Part shown: in pieces, positions 51,547-59,736 of the stretch
How the letters are laid out: each line of letters begins with the position of its first letter
Numbering within the stretch: position 1 is the first letter of the stretch
Program-made: the position numbers and the translations under genes
Assembly (NCBI RefSeq): GCF_001882345.1
Contig: NZ_MINL01000001.1
Location: 747,944 to 811,943, forward strand
Reading direction: 5' to 3'
DNA: 64,000 bases
Source of the DNA: Halomonas sp. QHL1
Lineage (GTDB): Bacteria > Pseudomonadota > Gammaproteobacteria > Pseudomonadales > Halomonadaceae
The notes under the pieces: generated by a model
The model's database searches: none
What the model was told of the DNA's origin: nothing
What the model saw: only the letters and a program-made list of their open reading frames with translations

Positions 51547-51996
51547 ATGACAAAATCAGCGTTTCAAAAAGCTTCCACTAAAGCAGCTAATGCTAGTTCA
51601 GCCGATACTAACTCATCTGATACTAACGCAGCCAATGACAACGTAGGTCATAACAGTGTCTTTAATACCTATGTAGTCGATAACAATGACTTGTTCGCTA
51701 TGTGGTATCAGCCTTGGGCTGAAACGTCCAATTCGGCGGCCAAGCTACAATGCATTTGGCTAGAAACACTTAACGACGCATTTCGCCACGAAATGGATTT
51801 CCTTGCGACCATAGCGCCCGTCTATAGCAAGCTTTCACACTGCATGTTGGGCTTGAATGGGCCGTTGACTCCCGAGTCGATGGCATCCTGCTATCACCAA
51901 ATCGCTGGCGACATGAGAGAGGCTACGTTTAACCGCATGCGCAACGTATCGGAACTCAGCGAAGACTTTAAAGAACGTATTTGGTGCGAATTATAG
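51547..51996 (+). CDS. phaP: phasin-type PHA granule protein
   Basis: A 149-aa protein. Residues 1-38 are low-complexity Ser/Ala/Asn/Thr/Asp with a repeated DTN unit; the remainder is helical and amphipathic (FAMWYQPWAETSNSAAKLQCIWLETLNDAFRHEMDFLATIAPVY), like phasins that coat polyhydroxyalkanoate granules. It stands 43 bases before phaC in the same direction with GGAGG ahead of its ATG. The assignment rests on position and general character more than on a sharp motif. Confidence 0.75.
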   Translation: MTKSAFQKASTKAANASSADTNSSDTNAANDNVGHNSVFNTYVVDNNDLFAMWYQPWAETSNSAAKLQCIWLETLNDAFRHEMDFLATIAPVYSKLSHCMLGLNGPLTPESMASCYHQIAGDMREATFNRMRNVSELSEDFKERIWCEL

Positions 51997-52039
51997 GAGC
52001 TGTAATAAAAAACGCCATGGTTGGAGGAACATAGCGCTT

Positions 52040-53767
52040 ATGCTGTTAGACGATACACTGCACGACAGTCTGGACAAGTTGATGCGGGCTTCACTAGCGA
52101 AGCTAACGCTGGGCATCTCTCCCGCGTCGGTTGCTCTGACATATCTGGACTGGTTGTCGAGCTTGGCTCTATCTCCTGGATCCCAAGCCCATCTAGTGCA
52201 GAAAGCCGTGAAGAAACAGCTGCGCTTAGTGCACTGGGCTAGCCATTCAGCATTCGATCCTAATGCGGCTCCCTGCATAGCACCTTTGCCCCAAGACCAC
52301 CGTTTTAAAGACCCGGCTTGGCGCCACTTCCCCTTTAACGTTCTTTACCAAAGTTTTCTGCTCCAACAACAGTGGTGGCATAACGCCACCACTGGCTTAC
52401 GGGGGCTGTCACCTCACCACGAACAGGCGTTGGAGTTCGGCGCCCGCCAGTGGCTTGATGTGCTGTCTCCGTCCAATTACTTGCTGACTAATCCCAGCGT
52501 ACTTGAGAAAACGTTAGCCAGCGGAGGCACTAATCTACTTAAGGGAATGGAGCACTGGTGGGAAGACGCGCAAAACCAATGGTTAGGCAGAAAGCCAGCC
52601 GGATGCGAAGACTATGTATTGGGGCGTGATGTGGCAATTATGCCCGGTAAGGTCGTGTATCGAAACCACTTGATAGAGCTGATCCAGTACGCGCCGACCA
52701 CCAAAGATGTGCACGCAATGCCCATATTGATAGTGCCCGCCTGGATCATGAAGTACTACATCCTCGACCTGTCGCCACATAACTCACTGGTCAGGTATCT
52801 GGTTGACCAAGGGCACAGCGTCTTTATGATCTCTTGGCGCAACCCCACTGAAGAGGATCGCGACCTAGGGATGGACGACTATCGTCGACAAGGCATTCTT
52901 GAAAGTCTGAATGTCATTGCTCAACTGATACCCGACCAGAAGATCCATACCGTAGGCTACTGCTTGGGGGGAACGCTGCTAGCGATTGCCGCTTCAGCGC
53001 TGGCGCGAGACAAAGATGACCGTTTGGCATCGATGACGCTGTTGGCCGCGCAAACCGATTTCCGCGAGGCTGGAGAACTGATGCTTTTCATTGATGAAAA
53101 GCAGCTCACTTTCCTTGAAGATCTGATGTGGGCCCAAGGAATTCTCGATACCAAACAGATGGCGGGTGCCTTCCAGATCCTGCGCTCCAATGATCTAATT
53201 TGGTCACGTATGGTTAACGAATACTTGCTGGCCACACGCCAACCCATGAACGATTTGCTGGCTTGGAATGCTGACGCAACACGCATGCCCTACCGCATGC
53301 ACTCCGAGTATCTGCGCCAGCTCTTTTTGAACAATGACTTTGCCGAAGGCCGCTACCGGGTGGATAATCGCCCGGTAACTTTCAACGACATACAGATTCC
53401 CGTCTTCTGCGTTGGCACCGAGTGGGATCATGTCGCGCCCTGGCGATCCACCTATAAGCTACACCTGATGTCCGACGCGCCAGAAGTGACCTTTCTGCTC
53501 ACCAACGGTGGTCACAACGCGGGCATCGTCAGCCCACCCGAGCATCCACGTCGCCATTACCGTATGGCCACTACTCTTGATGGCGACCCGTATATGGATC
53601 CGGATAGCTGGTTTGAACAGACACCGTGCCAGGCGGGATCCTGGTGGCCCGCTTGGCAAGGGTGGCTGATGGAGCGTTCAGGACCGCTAGTGCCTGCGCC
53701 AGACATCGGCTCACAGGGCTACCCGCCGCTCGAGGACGCCCCAGGCAGTTACGTAAGACAAATGTGA
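52040..53767 (+). CDS. phaC: class I polyhydroxyalkanoate synthase
   Basis: PhaC polymerises 3-hydroxyacyl-CoA into PHA at the granule surface. The 575-aa protein has the lipase-like box GYCLGG with nucleophile Cys308, Asp463 in GTEWDHVAPW and His492 in TNGGHNAGI, plus VPAWIMKYYILDL and FMISWRNP, standard for class I. The N-terminal region of about 190 residues is divergent and Trp-rich. No phaA or phaB adjoins, so monomer genes are elsewhere, as usual in Halomonas. Co-transcribed with the phasin gene. Confidence 0.94.
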   Translation: MLLDDTLHDSLDKLMRASLAKLTLGISPASVALTYLDWLSSLALSPGSQAHLVQKAVKKQLRLVHWASHSAFDPNAAPCIAPLPQDHRFKDPAWRHFPFNVLYQSFLLQQQWWHNATTGLRGLSPHHEQALEFGARQWLDVLSPSNYLLTNPSVLEKTLASGGTNLLKGMEHWWEDAQNQWLGRKPAGCEDYVLGRDVAIMPGKVVYRNHLIELIQYAPTTKDVHAMPILIVPAWIMKYYILDLSPHNSLVRYLVDQGHSVFMISWRNPTEEDRDLGMDDYRRQGILESLNVIAQLIPDQKIHTVGYCLGGTLLAIAASALARDKDDRLASMTLLAAQTDFREAGELMLFIDEKQLTFLEDLMWAQGILDTKQMAGAFQILRSNDLIWSRMVNEYLLATRQPMNDLLAWNADATRMPYRMHSEYLRQLFLNNDFAEGRYRVDNRPVTFNDIQIPVFCVGTEWDHVAPWRSTYKLHLMSDAPEVTFLLTNGGHNAGIVSPPEHPRRHYRMATTLDGDPYMDPDSWFEQTPCQAGSWWPAWQGWLMERSGPLVPAPDIGSQGYPPLEDAPGSYVRQM

Positions 53768-53810
53768 CTGCGCGGATGAGGGGCGGGTAATACGCCCGGC
53801 CACCGCTCCC

Positions 53811-54716
53811 CTACTCCGTAAGACCCCAAAAATGCGCTATATGGCGGGTCGATGATATGCCGACTTCCAGCATATACTTGTCAGCTTCCCCGAGGCCTTC
53901 ATCCCCACCGGCCATGATTGGCGTGCCGTGGCCCATACCCTTAATGATGTATTCCTCAATTACCTCTTGTTCCTGTGCATTGCACCAAACCTGGCGGGGA
54001 AAACCGTCGACCTCTTCCACTCGTGTAGGGGGGCCTTCCACCTTGTGGATCTGCTGCCACTGCCGAACAATGGAATCGGCGTTGGCATTGTCGACGGTCG
54101 AATCGCTGCCGCCATGCCAGACCGAGATCGTAGGCCAGGGCCCGTCGAAGGTGGAGGCTTCGCGCACAAGCTTGTCGAGCCTGTGATCCGACGGGCCGCC
54201 ATATCCTTTCATGCGAACCATCGCCTCTATCAAGTTATCCGCGCTGCGGTAGGGTAGTCCGGCGATGATCGCTCCTCCCGCGAATACCTCCGGATAGGTC
54301 GCCAGCATCACAGATGTCATCGCGCCACCCGAAGACATCCCTGTAACGAAGATGCGCGAGGGATCGATGCCGTGATCATCAACGACCTGCTCTATCATAT
54401 GACGAATAGAAAGTGGTTCGCCGCCGCCACGGCGGCTGTCGCCAGACTTAAACCAGTTGAAGCTGCTAGTGGGATTGTTGGTTTTTCTTTGCTCAGGATA
54501 AAGCAGCGCTATCCCACACTCGTCGGCAAGAGCAGACCAGCCTGAACCGCGATCATAACCCTCCGCCGACTGGGTACTGCCGTGAAGTACAACGACGAGC
54601 GGACCATTCTTAGGGAAGTTCTTGGGTATGTAGGTGTCTGCATGTAACGACCCGGGATCAGTTCCGAATTGTTTCATGTCGGTCAGACGATCTTGGCTAT
54701 CTGAAGATGTCGGCAT
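53811..54716 (-). CDS. PHB-depolymerase/esterase-family hydrolase
   Basis: A 301-aa alpha/beta hydrolase of the PHB depolymerase-type esterase family (LpqC-like): PLVVVLHGSTQSAEGY, GWSALADECGIALLYPEQ, nucleophile Ser in VTGMSSGGAMTSVM, and late His in GMGHGTP. No signal peptide is seen, so it is probably cytoplasmic, which would suit intracellular ester or PHA oligomer hydrolysis. It ends 43 bases from phaC, convergent. True polymer activity cannot be read from the sequence; feruloyl/acetyl esterases share this family. Confidence 0.82.
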   Translation of the reverse strand: MPTSSDSQDRLTDMKQFGTDPGSLHADTYIPKNFPKNGPLVVVLHGSTQSAEGYDRGSGWSALADECGIALLYPEQRKTNNPTSSFNWFKSGDSRRGGGEPLSIRHMIEQVVDDHGIDPSRIFVTGMSSGGAMTSVMLATYPEVFAGGAIIAGLPYRSADNLIEAMVRMKGYGGPSDHRLDKLVREASTFDGPWPTISVWHGGSDSTVDNANADSIVRQWQQIHKVEGPPTRVEEVDGFPRQVWCNAQEQEVIEEYIIKGMGHGTPIMAGGDEGLGEADKYMLEVGISSTRHIAHFWGLTE

Positions 54717-54995: not shown

Positions 54996-56618
54996 TTAGT
55001 CATCCGGTGCTAGCTCCTCCTGCTTAGGTGGGCTGCCCACCTTCACCTCGCTGAGATCTTCATGGGAAAGGCCACGGAACAACGCGAACATCATCGCAAA
55101 CACCAAAATAAACATCGGTAGACCAACAACAGTGATCACCTCCTGCAGTGCAGTAAGCCCCGCATCACCAGCAAGCACGATGAGCATCGCAGCCAGCATG
55201 CCTTCAGAGACGCCCCAAAAGACGCGCTGGTGCCATGGGCCAGGATCCGCGCTGCCGGTACACAGCATATCGACTACCAATGACGCAGAGTCCGATGAAG
55301 TGGCAAAGAAGATGGCGACGATAACAACGGCAAGGCCCTGTATTAATGTGGCACCTGGGAAATTATCGAAAAAGGCAAACATGGCAAGTGGGATGCTTTC
55401 GCCTACCGCAGCGGACAAGATACCGGCCTGAGTCCCCATTGCTTCTCGGGCATCGGGCCCTATCCCGTCAATCTCCATTGCGGACCAGCCAAAGATCGCA
55501 AACCAGACCAGTGTAAATATGGACGGGGCGAACAGCACACCAAGGACGAACTCGCGGATGGTTCGTCCCCGAGAAATCCGTGCTACGAAAATCCCGATGA
55601 AAGGTGACCAAGTGACTGTCCAGGCCCAGTAGAACACCGTCCAACTGCCTTGCCACCCCCAGGTACCGCCATCGCTTGAATAACTTGCCAGCGTGTCATT
55701 CCAGAACGCCATTGGCAGCAAGTTCGTTATGTAGAGGCCAAATGTCTCGACAACGGCACGCAAAAGGAAAACGGTCGACCCGGTAAAAAGCACAAACAGC
55801 ATCAGGCCCACGGCCATGGCAATATTGATATTCGATAACCGTTTCACGCCTGAGTCCAGGCCCGCCACGATAGACCCTACAGCAACGGACGTCAGTACGG
55901 CGATGATGATCACCTTAGTTATGACGGCATCTGGAATATCAAACAATTCCGTTAGCCCCGCGTTAATCTGCTGAGTACCCAGGCCGATAGAAACCGCCAC
56001 ACCAAAAAGAGTGCCGAGTATCGCGAAGATATCGAGGGCTTTGCCTAAGGGACCGAAAATACGGTCGCCTAACAGCGGATAAAATACTGAACTGAAACGC
56101 ATCGGCAGGTTGTAACGGTAGATAAAGTACGCAAAAGCTAGCCCCGGCATAGCGAAAATCGCCCAGGTATGCAGCCCCAGGTGGTAGATCGAAAAACTCA
56201 TAGCATCGTCGGCGGCTTCCACAGAGAAAGGCACAACATCCGGTCTCGGAGGGTTGGAAAAATGGGAAATAGGCTCGGCCACCCCCCAGAACATCAATAC
56301 CGTACCGATACCGCCGGCGAACAGCATAGTGAACCAGGATATGTTGCCGTAGGCTGGCTTCGCATCATTGCCACCTAGGCGGATCGCCCCATAACGGCTG
56401 AGCGCCACCCACAGCAGAAATGCCACCCAACTCGTTACCCCTAAAATAAAAAACCAGCCTAGATTGGTAACGATCCACTCTCGACCCGCACCAAAGGCTG
56501 CCCCGATTGGGCCCGGTGCAATCAGAAGCACCACCAAAAAAACGACCATGATCCCTGCCGATGTAAAAAAAATCACGGGATCAGTCTTGAGGCCCAGCTT
56601 TCTCGCGAGTGCATCCAT
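54996..56618 (-). CDS. BCCT-family transporter with altered substrate cage
   Basis: A 540-aa, 12-helix betaine/carnitine/choline transporter: LFAGGIGTVLMFWGVAEPISHF, YHLGLHTWAIFAMPGL and WTVFYWAWTVTWSPFIGIFVARISRGRTIREF. In BetP the quaternary amine is held by Trp189, Trp194, Tyr197 and Trp374. By local alignment with equal spacing these are Leu147, Trp152, Phe155 and Thr334 here, so three of four cage residues differ. The substrate is likely not a simple trimethylammonium osmolyte. The C-terminal tail is short and acidic, without an obvious osmosensing helix. Separate transcript from the ATP-grasp gene upstream. Confidence 0.9.
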   Translation of the reverse strand: MDALARKLGLKTDPVIFFTSAGIMVVFLVVLLIAPGPIGAAFGAGREWIVTNLGWFFILGVTSWVAFLLWVALSRYGAIRLGGNDAKPAYGNISWFTMLFAGGIGTVLMFWGVAEPISHFSNPPRPDVVPFSVEAADDAMSFSIYHLGLHTWAIFAMPGLAFAYFIYRYNLPMRFSSVFYPLLGDRIFGPLGKALDIFAILGTLFGVAVSIGLGTQQINAGLTELFDIPDAVITKVIIIAVLTSVAVGSIVAGLDSGVKRLSNINIAMAVGLMLFVLFTGSTVFLLRAVVETFGLYITNLLPMAFWNDTLASYSSDGGTWGWQGSWTVFYWAWTVTWSPFIGIFVARISRGRTIREFVLGVLFAPSIFTLVWFAIFGWSAMEIDGIGPDAREAMGTQAGILSAAVGESIPLAMFAFFDNFPGATLIQGLAVVIVAIFFATSSDSASLVVDMLCTGSADPGPWHQRVFWGVSEGMLAAMLIVLAGDAGLTALQEVITVVGLPMFILVFAMMFALFRGLSHEDLSEVKVGSPPKQEELAPDD

Positions 56619-56909
56619 CGTTACGTCTCCCAGTGTCTTTACAGCCCGTTGTTATACTCATCCTTTATAACCAGCTTTATATCCGGCCTTCATAACCAGA
56701 CATTACAACTCGTCTTTAAAGCTAGCCTCTAAAACAACGTAGGAGCTATGTGCCAATCACGCCAAGCTGGGCGAAAGAAAAACGCTATTTCCAGCACCTC
56801 TCGGCTGTATAGAGGTAGGGTGACCAATTCCTATACTCACCCTTGAGAAGACAGTGGCGTCTCGCCTTTATAAACCTTGATGCTTGAACAGAACGTGCTG
56901 GTAAAAAAC
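56619..56909. other. BCCT upstream region with 13-bp direct repeats
   Basis: No gene seen between the BCCT start and the ATP-grasp terminator. CCTTTATAACCAG (56662-56674) and CCTTCATAACCAG (56687-56699) repeat with one mismatch at a 25-base interval, near where a BCCT promoter would lie. Possible regulator binding sites. Confidence 0.45.
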
Positions 56910-56956
56910 AGGCGAGGCCTATCAGCATCTAATGTGGATGCTGATAGGCCTCGCCT
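56910..56956 (-). terminator. very strong terminator after the ATP-grasp gene
   Basis: A perfect 20-bp stem around a 7-base loop; on the minus strand it is followed by TGTTTTTTACC. It lies 30 bases after the ATP-grasp stop and should fully isolate the BCCT gene. Confidence 0.93.
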
Positions 56957-56985
56957 AGAGTTAAACGTATTGCTTTAGTAGAAGC

Positions 56986-58293
56986 CTAGACGTAGAAATC
57001 CAGATCTTCTTGCGCTTTCAATAGATCGCGCATCTTGATGGGGTCGTCTCCAAAGAAGAAGATTAGGCCCCAGTGCGTCCCGAAGGCTGACCGGTCAGGC
57101 ACTGTCTCTTCTGCCGGTGCGACCAGCTCGTGTGACTCAAAGTACGGGTGATTAATCGTTTCTTCGGGCATTTCCAACTTACTGACAACCCGACGGCGTG
57201 GGTACACACCAAAACAGCCTGCGTAGCCCTTCGCATCAACCACTTCACGCGGGAAGAATGCCGCCACTTCCTCTTTCGTGCTTTTCGGGTCGAACACCAA
57301 CATTGACGCTTGATAAGCGTTGAAACCGTAGGCTTTTTCGATCAGTTCGAAAGCTTTGAAGCCGGGTGGACGATAAGCAACTTCGCCAAAGTACATTTCA
57401 CCATCGGCCGTAACGAAGTACTCGGGGTGAATCAAGCCGAACTGGATGTCAAAGGTCTTGATCAACAGCTCGATCTGCTTGGTAATCGCATTGCGCCAGC
57501 TTTCGAGTTCCGCGGTCGCGGGCACGAATACCGAATAGCCCAATGTCACGTATTCCGAAATATTGAGGAACTGAATTTTGCCATCGTGTATCCAGGCTTC
57601 AACGGCAAACTCCCAGCCGCTCAGGTGACTTTCCATTAACAGCGGATATTCTTCATCAGGGATATGGTCAATTTCTTCAATCGTGCGAATCATCCGGTGG
57701 CCAAGACAGCCAGCTTTGTCGAAGGCCTTGACGTGAATCGGGTCATCCGGGTCACCGTCCAGTTTGAGCAGCGTCTGGTTGACGCGCTTCATAAAGCGAA
57801 CGATGTCTTCTTTCTCATGCGCCTCTTCAAAGATCCCGACGCGGATACCGCCAAGCTGGGCACGACGCTTCATCAGGGCCTTGTCACGGAACAGAATGGA
57901 CTGACCGTACATGCGCGGGCTGTCGAGAAGCACGGAGTTGATGGCACCAGACCACTCAACGGTTTCTTCGAACAGCGGGATGGCAACGTCTACACCTTCT
58001 TCCTTCAGCCTTACAGCGATCTCCATGGAGCGATCATTCAAGCGAATAAAGTCCCACGGGATGAAAGGTATGTTGTTCGCTGCACAGAAATCTGCAGCCC
58101 ATTCGGGAGCAACGACAATATAACGACGGTCAAACTTTTGCGCCGCCTTAATCGCGTTTACACTCCATCCAAGTAAGGCAATGTAACCTTTGTTCGGATC
58201 TTTAGGGGTCTCAGTGCCTTTCACCGAGTCCATTTCCGGATCACGCCAAGCTGCTACTGCTTCGGGTAATTGCTTTTCTGATGTTATCGACAT
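56986..58293 (-). CDS. orphan ATP-grasp ligase of unknown product
   Basis: A 435-aa soluble protein of the ATP-grasp superfamily. Residues 35-130 form a Rossmann-like pre-ATP-grasp domain (YIALLGWSVNAIKAAQKF). Residues 140-340 form the ATP-grasp fold, with VKAFDKAGCLGHRM, LLMESHLSGWEFAVEAWIHDGKI and the metal-site segment FVTADGEMYFGEVAYRPPG. The end is GLIFFFGDDPIKMRDLL, as in carbamoyl-phosphate-synthase-like and peptide-ligase ATP-grasps. It should join a carboxylate to an amine, but neither is known. It stands between a BCCT carrier and an exo/endonuclease-family gene, with its own long leader and strong terminator. Confidence 0.82.
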   Translation of the reverse strand: MSITSEKQLPEAVAAWRDPEMDSVKGTETPKDPNKGYIALLGWSVNAIKAAQKFDRRYIVVAPEWAADFCAANNIPFIPWDFIRLNDRSMEIAVRLKEEGVDVAIPLFEETVEWSGAINSVLLDSPRMYGQSILFRDKALMKRRAQLGGIRVGIFEEAHEKEDIVRFMKRVNQTLLKLDGDPDDPIHVKAFDKAGCLGHRMIRTIEEIDHIPDEEYPLLMESHLSGWEFAVEAWIHDGKIQFLNISEYVTLGYSVFVPATAELESWRNAITKQIELLIKTFDIQFGLIHPEYFVTADGEMYFGEVAYRPPGFKAFELIEKAYGFNAYQASMLVFDPKSTKEEVAAFFPREVVDAKGYAGCFGVYPRRRVVSKLEMPEETINHPYFESHELVAPAEETVPDRSAFGTHWGLIFFFGDDPIKMRDLLKAQEDLDFYV

Positions 58294-58614
58294 TCGATGT
58301 CCTCCTTGCTGGTTGACTCAAATTGACTGCGCTGAGATTGGAGCGCACCAAGTGAGCTAAGCCGCAGTCAGTGGTGTTCAGGAGCGATTGAACAAGCCAG
58401 CATTAGAAAAGTTTTTAGCGCACCCGTGTAACTAAGCTAGTCGATCCGGTTACATATGGCAATTAAACTGTAGAGTTTCTGTTGAATTGCTGTAGAACTT
58501 ATCTCGCTGAAAGATGGGGATAATTTCTACAGTCTGTTGCTCAACATGGAGCCGATACGTTGAAAAAAATTCAGGGGATCGAGCCTATACCTACGAATCC
58601 CCCTCTACTTTTTA
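58294..58614. promoter_or_regulatory. ATP-grasp upstream region with three CTGTAGA elements
   Basis: No gene in 321 bases. CTGTAGA occurs directly at 58468-58474 and 58490-58496, exactly 22 bases (two helical turns) apart, and inverted as TCTACAG at 58526-58532. This arrangement suggests binding sites for a regulator of the ATP-grasp gene. A GGGGAT/ATCCCC hairpin at 58574-58603, followed on the minus strand by seven T, probably terminates the upstream exo/endonuclease-family gene. Confidence 0.5.
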
Positions 58615-59736
58615 TTAACCACCATCATGCTCAGCGGCGTCTTCGGCGCCCTCCTCGACCATCTCCTGGGCTTCCTGCTCCTCCTCTTCTGAAGCCTCTG
58701 GCTTTCCGTGATCTTTACGGCCAACAGTGAGCGTTGTTGAGAGGCCGAAGTGATCCGAGCCTTCTACTTTGACTCTGTCGATATCAATCAGGTGGAAGCC
58801 GTCAGAAACGAACAGGTGATCAATTGGGTAGCGCCACCAGGGGTATTCCGCGTGGTAGGTGCTGAGCAACCGCCGACCACGGCGAGGGTCTTTCAGATCG
58901 CTTAAATCGGCAAAAAGCTTGGTAGTGTCGGACCAAGCGACGTCATTAAAATCCCCCGTAACAATCCAACGGTTGTCCGGATCTTTTTCAACATGGCGAG
59001 CAATGAGCATAAGCTCTGCATCGCGTTCACGGCTGTCCCGCCGCTCTTCCTCACTACTAACTTTCCTCTCTTCCAGCCCTGGCGGAACCGGGTGGGCGCC
59101 AACAAAGCGCACTGGCCCGATGTCTGGCGCATCAATCGTTGCGAAAACTGACGGCCGACGTTCAGAAACCAAGTGCTTGACCTCCTGTTCCAGCAACGGA
59201 ATCCGTGACCACAGCACTATCCCCAGCCCCTCACCGCGAACTTCCCCGACCCGGTGTGGGTACTCCTCATCAAGCGCTGCCAGCCCGTCTTCCCAGGCAC
59301 TATCGACTTCGATTAGCAGCAGTAGATCGGGATCTTCGCTTCGAATCATCGACAGCACCTCTTCGAAGTGATCATTCGAGTAGGTAACATTCGCAGTCAG
59401 CACTTTTATAGTCGTCTGGTTTTCGCCGGGTTCTACCTCGGCAGTGGGTACTTCGGTGGACCAGACGGAGGTAAATGGCAGGATATGCATTAAGTGCCAG
59501 CCTGCGATTGCAAGAATCACTACCCCCCACACGGCGTGCTCTTTCTGTGGGCGCTTAAGCCAAGCATGCAGGCCAAGAAGCAATACAGGTACGGCCAATA
59601 ATCCTGTCAACTGAAGCCGTGGAAAATCCCACAGCCTGATCCACCACTGACCACTGGGTATGAATGGCAGCAAGGCCACCACAACCATCAAGAGCACTAA
59701 CAACCGGATGACCCAGAGAAGGAGCTTTAACAACAT
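58615..59736 (-). CDS. membrane-anchored endonuclease/exonuclease/phosphatase-family protein
   Basis: A 373-aa protein. The first 95 residues form about three membrane helices (LLLWVIRLLVLLMVVVALLPF, LTGLLAVPVLLLGLHAWL, GVVILAIAGWHLMHILPF). An EEP-fold domain follows: VLTANVTYSNDHFEEVL, LLLIEVDSAWEDGL, WIVTGDFNDVAWSDT and the final PIDHLFVSDG with GSDHFGLSTTL, carrying Asn, Glu, Asp and His of the metal site. The tail is very acidic. ATG 59736 has GAGAGG upstream. Substrate (nucleic acid, lipid or sugar phosphate) unknown; the active site should face the periplasm or cytoplasm according to helix count. Confidence 0.85.
   Translation of the reverse strand: MLLKLLLWVIRLLVLLMVVVALLPFIPSGQWWIRLWDFPRLQLTGLLAVPVLLLGLHAWLKRPQKEHAVWGVVILAIAGWHLMHILPFTSVWSTEVPTAEVEPGENQTTIKVLTANVTYSNDHFEEVLSMIRSEDPDLLLLIEVDSAWEDGLAALDEEYPHRVGEVRGEGLGIVLWSRIPLLEQEVKHLVSERRPSVFATIDAPDIGPVRFVGAHPVPPGLEERKVSSEEERRDSRERDAELMLIARHVEKDPDNRWIVTGDFNDVAWSDTTKLFADLSDLKDPRRGRRLLSTYHAEYPWWRYPIDHLFVSDGFHLIDIDRVKVEGSDHFGLSTTLTVGRKDHGKPEASEEEEQEAQEMVEEGAEDAAEHDGG

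Follow-up and report, generated by a model that had tools for sequence, protein, structure and literature searches.

Introduction

Within the 64,000-nucleotide stretch of the Halomonas sp. QHL1 genome analysed here (the window) lies a gene for an ATP-grasp protein which raises the question of what an apparently orphan ligase joins, which protein it acts with and how its expression is controlled. A preliminary description had proposed that the enzyme and a neighbouring BCCT transporter make or use the same compound. Our analysis leads away from the transporter and points to an undescribed two-part system that would add and remove amino acids inside the cell, consisting of the ligase and a papain-like protein encoded elsewhere in the genome. 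No publication describing this pair was found in a literature search.

An ATP-grasp ligase under strong constraint

The gene occupies positions 56986 to 58293 on the minus strand and, read from an ATG start, encodes 435 amino acids; the size and the classification as an ATP-grasp protein without a named product, as originally described, are confirmed by the list of open reading frames and by Pfam and NCBIfam. The protein is referred to here as the long paralogue. It shows sub-threshold ATP-grasp similarity, scoring 22.6 bits against Pfam ATP-grasp_4, under the 27-bit cutoff, and matches to PDB sequences are weak and of partial coverage (best E values 0.0009-0.002), with L-amino-acid ligases leading. 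The AlphaFold2 model is moderately confident (pLDDT 68.4). In a Foldseek search with this model, RizA (4wd3) is the top match (E=1.7e-14), followed by BL00235 (3vot), with BacD/YwfE (3wnz) also ranking high. Comparison by VIA gives Z scores of 21.2, 20.5 and 17.8 for BL00235, RizA and YwfE, respectively, although a phosphoribosylglycinamide synthetase (4dim) reaches a Z of 20.3, level with RizA, and PurK enzymes follow closely. The matches to many ATP-grasp enzymes in both structural searches, combined with candidate ATP- or metal-binding residues (K189, E228, E291, E304 and R308) that all 31 aligned relatives share, place the ligase within the ATP-grasp superfamily. The resemblance to the L-amino-acid ligases covers residues 33-434 and includes an aligned H-x-E ... 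G-E-x-x-x-R stretch. The ligase differs from them in sequence, with 16-17% identity, and in being genetically linked, as a rule, to a papain-like protein.

As judged from coding sequence comparison, the long ligase is under strong purifying selection. dN/dS ranges from 0.010 to 0.027 against 29 copies (loci L003-L031), ratios which are rough because dS exceeds 1 in most pairs and which are quoted without six of nine more distant pairs that were saturated or had infinite dS. Identity is 86-99% across the best 80 of at least 584 loci, distributed over Gamma- and Alphaproteobacteria. A plasmid search, after which plasmid carriage was rejected, detected one 1.83-Mb Halomonas replicon matching the ligase with 93% coverage and 80% identity, together with seven partial matches at 24-30%. 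A role in anti-phage defence was considered and rejected, since none of the five proteins submitted matched a PADLOC-DB 2.0.0 family up to E 0.1; the single PHROGs match (E 0.028) is to an uncharacterised family.

A papain-like partner protein

The genome also carries a second ligase copy, 80% identical and without the N-terminal extension of the long paralogue (G000:C1:1403620-1404933, longest open reading frame). Located 30 bp behind this short copy is a gene encoding a protein of 685 amino acids (L113:6965-9022), the partner, which represents a candidate new protein family: the partner and its homologues match no Pfam or NCBIfam model at cutoffs. The partner model, of good quality (pLDDT 83.4), consists of helices to approximately residue 395, comprising a helical region of about 370 residues, and a part bearing the catalytic pattern beyond. 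Each of the 23 sequences compared retains Q402, C408, H566 and N587, in the order Gln-Cys-His-Asn that characterises clan CA, as papain-type enzymes carry ordered Gln, Cys, His and Asn/Asp catalytic residues. The Gln precedes the Cys by six residues and the Cys-His and His-Asn distances are 158 and 21 residues, respectively, the corresponding distances in calpain-1 being about 157 and 24. Calpain cores head the VIA comparison, that of calpain-5 aligning 208 residues of partner region 369-631 at an rmsd of 4.5 with Z 7.6, a range in which a match may reflect a common arrangement; in the same list, the unrelated helical Nop9 scores Z 7.0 against the N-terminal part. Foldseek with the partner model returned nothing significant (best E 0.45). 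The partner thus carries a papain/calpain-like catalytic pattern and is a candidate cysteine peptidase of that group, while differing from calpain and papain in the lack of a sequence-level match and in its long helical N-terminus.

Ligase and partner occur together. In a phylum sample of 398 genomes, the same 11 match both proteins (Fisher 1e-21 overall and 3.6e-15 once the own genus is excluded, values which treat genomes as independent although they are not). Within the genus, near-full copies of both are present in 56 of 61 genomes and of neither in five, counting a few matches that are split, ended by contig ends or interrupted by one stop. A pair this widespread is nevertheless missed by the curated models scanned, as neither protein reaches a Pfam or NCBIfam cutoff. 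A wider tally over 97 genomes (ligase 62, partner 61) counts G015 and G054, which have fragments only, and its ligase figure also takes in a weak match in G063. At 71 fetched loci, not all from different genomes, the two genes are neighbours, and the partner may precede the ligase, follow it or be divergently oriented. By tblastn, partner relatives are found in the fetched flanks of 37 of the best 80 of at least 584 long-ligase loci, a recount which replaces a first neighbour clustering of 81 loci including the window (partner 31, Peptidase_Mx 12). Among the same best 80, 28 loci lack partner, Peptidase_Mx and BCCT in the fetched flanks, some of which were shortened by contig ends. The orphan label is right locally and yet misleading, as the family is accompanied by a papain-like protein whose gene lies elsewhere in this genome.

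Annotation of the four commonest neighbour clusters, leaving rarer neighbours and the BCCT cluster aside, identified the partner, Peptidase_Mx, an alpha/beta hydrolase and a protein that matches no Pfam model. The Peptidase_Mx gene (PF15887, a zinc metallopeptidase) is present in 16 flanks of the best 80 of at least 584 loci and matched in 59 of 97 relatives. It was rejected as an obligate third component, as the pair exists in genomes G002, G009, G044, G048, G049 and G059, none of which matches Peptidase_Mx; conversely, G015 and G042 have a Peptidase_Mx match without a near-full ligase-partner pair. Loci with this gene include L066, L071, L073, L081, L057, L101 and L110, and alphaproteobacterial ones are among them.

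Two paralogous sets and an apparently displaced ligase

The ligase tree splits into long and short clades, the long clade receiving support of 100/99 with 29 of 36 rows; the bootstrap is not fully settled. Both clades are found across families. An N-terminal extension of approximately 28 residues is conserved in the long copies and not shared by the short ones. The 61 genomes of the genus contain a near-full long ligase in 33 cases, a short one in 46, both in 23 and neither in five, leaving 10 with a long ligase and no near-full short copy. The pair mostly forms two paralogous sets, short ligase with partner A and long ligase with a B-type partner, with exceptions. Several partner subfamilies accompany the one near-uniform long ligase, and subfamily tracks ligase type in part, with three label changes on the tree.

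In the window's genome, two ligases are present with one partner, and no partner gene adjoins the long copy. All 10 long-only genomes of the genus keep partner A and in eight of them a short-ligase remnant directly precedes the partner, suggesting that the long ligase may serve partner A in trans. From these gene arrangements, the supposed orphan looks like a displaced, substitutable ligase of a ligase-protease pair. Displacement concerns one lineage, since G079, G229 and G264 retain both partner types.

Alternatively, the long copy could be redundant, a duplicate maintained by dosage whose role does not go further than that of the short copy. Coexistence of the two in 23 of 61 genomes and the occurrence of the long copy alone in 10 are compatible with redundancy; the separate and conserved upstream repeats described below, the conserved extension that short copies do not share and the presence of both clades across families all argue against it, and we consider it improbable.

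Tagging or metabolite synthesis

Other bacterial systems join an ATP-grasp enzyme to a peptidase. In RimK/RimB and in RloC/RloA of Pseudomonas, an ATP-grasp protein is genetically tied to a peptidase, and a stress phenotype has been published for Rlo (PMC12239564). The ligase-protease logic is shared with the pair described here. However, the peptidases of those systems are retropepsin-like aspartic proteases, whereas the partner combines a papain-like Cys-His-Asn pattern with a helical region, and no RimK family is among the Pfam and NCBIfam matches of the ligase up to E 0.1. A tagging role has likewise been proposed for an operon encoding Anbu, ATP-grasp, alpha-E and transglutaminase proteins (PMC6376114). 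There, too, an ATP-grasp gene adjoins a gene for a cysteine-protease fold, but the annotated recurrent neighbours of our ligase, the four commonest clusters, are neither Anbu nor alpha-E. As the parts differ, we do not file the ligase-partner pair under RimK/RimB, RloC/RloA or the Anbu operon.

We tentatively regard the long ligase as the ligase half of a two-protein intracellular amino-acid or peptide tagging system in which a protease acts as eraser, a reading to which we give somewhat less than an even chance. The ligase would activate a carboxylate as acyl phosphate and join an amino acid or short peptide to a cytoplasmic target. The helical part of the partner would pick the target and its cysteine-peptidase part would trim or remove the addition, a writer/eraser arrangement with RimK/RimB-like logic. 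The long copy would bring the ligase under extra control, probably through a response regulator. Salt adaptation is a likely setting, judged from the hosts.

A ligase next to a peptidase-fold protein would fit metabolite synthesis or transacylation as well. The ligase may produce a dipeptide or an amide, perhaps serving as osmolyte or protectant, with the papain-like partner hydrolysing the product or moving an acyl group, which we hold to be a real possibility though distinctly short of even. L-amino-acid ligases yield free dipeptides, and these enzymes are the closest solved relatives. In addition, many named hosts among the best 80 of at least 584 loci belong to genera which we take to be halophilic or marine. 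Papain-fold transacylases of the BtrH family also occur within predicted peptide-metabolite clusters (PMC2922099). The surroundings of the ligase are less in keeping with a metabolite route, the commonest annotated neighbours being the four clusters named above, with rarer ones unannotated. Furthermore, a helical region of about 370 residues exceeds the needs of a small-molecule hydrolase, and G079, with five near-full partner copies and two ligases, fits target selection better. Tagging is preferred, on indirect grounds, because the partner possesses this sizeable helical region and has diversified alongside a ligase that stays nearly constant.

The broadest form of the tagging proposal is an undescribed reversible protein or peptide tagging system of halophilic and marine Proteobacteria, in which a nearly uniform ligase works with diversifying papain-like proteases built on a helical scaffold and the Halomonas/Vreelandella ligase has been uncoupled and given its own stress operator; taken as a whole, this is rather doubtful. 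If the ligase tags proteins, the pair would constitute a new reversible modification in bacteria; should the ligase product be a solute, the pair would extend halophile biochemistry. The natural occurrence of long-only, short-only and double genomes makes the system directly testable.

The BCCT neighbour

The BCCT transporter gene (54996 to 56618, minus strand) adjoins the ligase behind an intrinsic terminator located at 56910 to 56956. Its assignment is genuine by Pfam, NCBIfam and PDB comparison, and the non-standard binding cage claimed for it is in line with the sequence, which reads AWTVTW against AWWIAW and AWWVAW in the two solved relatives compared, with Thr at the second Trp of AWW; these Trp residues presumably form the cage of the BCCT binding site. 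The terminator, on the minus strand, has the 20-bp stem reported previously, which is perfectly paired (arms 56910-56929 and 56937-56956), a 7-nt loop and a T run, the stem being followed by GTTTTTT. It is notable for stem length and not for number, since the scan found one terminator-like site against 2.1 in shuffled sequences.

The proposal that the ATP-grasp enzyme synthesises a compatible solute which the BCCT next to it transports is highly improbable. Adjacency in the window and the departure from the Trp pattern of the solved relatives are in its favour, as is a distance of <5 kb in nine (<500 bp in four) of the 21 genomes of the genus that contain both genes. Co-occurrence does not bear it out, however: over 61 genomes, with a BCCT match threshold of E <= 1e-250, long ligase and BCCT are both present in 21, ligase only in 12, BCCT only in 14 and neither in 14, that is, without association (Fisher p=0.31). 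Similarly, BCCT matches are found in the fetched flanks of four of the best 80 of at least 584 loci, G079 has two ligases and no BCCT match at E 1e-250, and the terminator stem separates the genes. Synteny and co-occurrence thus reject the partnership, leaving the proposed shared compound unsupported, and the transporter is probably an unrelated, chance neighbour.

The region before the BCCT gene (51547-54716) encodes a 149-aa open reading frame without an NCBIfam match, a PHA-synthase-like protein (TIGR01838, 542 bits, under the cutoff of 622.65) and a PHB-depolymerase-family esterase scoring above cutoff.

Upstream repeats and leader of the long copy

The two CTGTAGA copies exactly 22 bp apart noted in the preliminary description are present upstream of the gene; three 11-bp direct repeats are the better reading. 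A third copy, TCAACAG, sits midway between the TCTACAG pair, and the element, TCTACAG-N4-TCAACAG-N4-TCTACAG in gene direction, is therefore taken as three repeats with an 11-bp period (58468 to 58496, minus strand; TCTACAG 58496-58490, TCAACAG 58485-58479, TCTACAG 58474-58468), a probable activator site. The 7-mer alone is not enriched, as five copies are seen in the window versus 4.85 expected. Across the 4.16-Mb genome, the pair at 22-bp spacing is found a single time, compared with 0 for a reversed-pattern control. The triple repeat has one exact genome match, and allowing up to three mismatches adds one site, as it does for the control.

Conservation was scored over 30 loci (L002-L031), 29 of the genus including the window's own plus G079 of another family, which are related and hence not independent. 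The mean score is 15.3 of 18 at period 11 versus 11.1-11.4 at periods 9, 10, 12 and 13 and 11.1 in shuffles. Twenty of the 30 loci score at least 16 of 18 and the other 10 score 10-14, so that the repeats are kept upstream of most orthologues examined. Exact TCTACAG is present in both copies at nine loci, in one copy at six and absent from 14, with one locus unparsed. Among upstream regions parsed, both the exact repeat pair and the promoter pattern are confined to the Halomonas group, outside which TCTACAG occurs as single stray copies at L059 and L106. When 20 upstream regions from the genus are aligned, the conserved part starts at about the repeats and continues to the start codon. These repeats, combined with the terminator before the BCCT gene, support the earlier view of the gene as its own regulated unit.

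Tandem direct repeats that are spaced one helical turn (approximately 11 bp) from each other and precede the -35 element are typical of OmpR/PhoB-family activators. The preference for period 11 over 9, 10, 12 and 13 across the 30 loci agrees with this layout and, from repeat spacing alone, a response regulator probably controls the long copy. A putative -35 element, TTGCCA (58457 to 58462, minus strand), identified in the upstream alignment, begins five bases beyond the repeat end, with a putative -10 element, TAGCTT (TAnnnT; 58434 to 58439, minus strand), 17 bp after it. TTGCCA-N17-TAGCTT is conserved; of 109 upstream regions parsed, 44 contain the -35/-10 pattern, none of them outside L002-L048 and with some genomes counted twice. 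A generic promoter scan found no promoters (2.2 in shuffles) and did not call it. The inverted CTGTAGA copy described earlier does exist (58526 to 58532, minus strand), and the region pairs with 58490-58503 through 14-nt arms that are 93% complementary. It is, however, confined to the window's genome among the loci parsed and was rejected as part of the operator, its occurrence probably being due to chance.

Provided that the conserved TTGCCA-N17-TAGCTT is the promoter, the leader would extend from 58294 to 58427 on the minus strand with AAGGAGG before the ATG, and its length of approximately 130 nt would fall within the 100-200 bases first suggested. A riboswitch or structured leader was rejected: Rfam gave four matches under gathering scores over 56500-58800, none within the leader, and the RNAalifold signal from 23 leaders is unconvincing (covariation term -0.31 kcal/mol). 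Two-sided changes affect five of 16 predicted pairs; for one pair, close to the ribosome-binding site, they are seen in seven sequences. Two occurrences of a further sequence, AGCGCACC (GGTGCGCT in gene direction), lie in or at the leader (58342-58349 and 58417-58424), 75 nt apart, and many of the 23 aligned relatives retain them.
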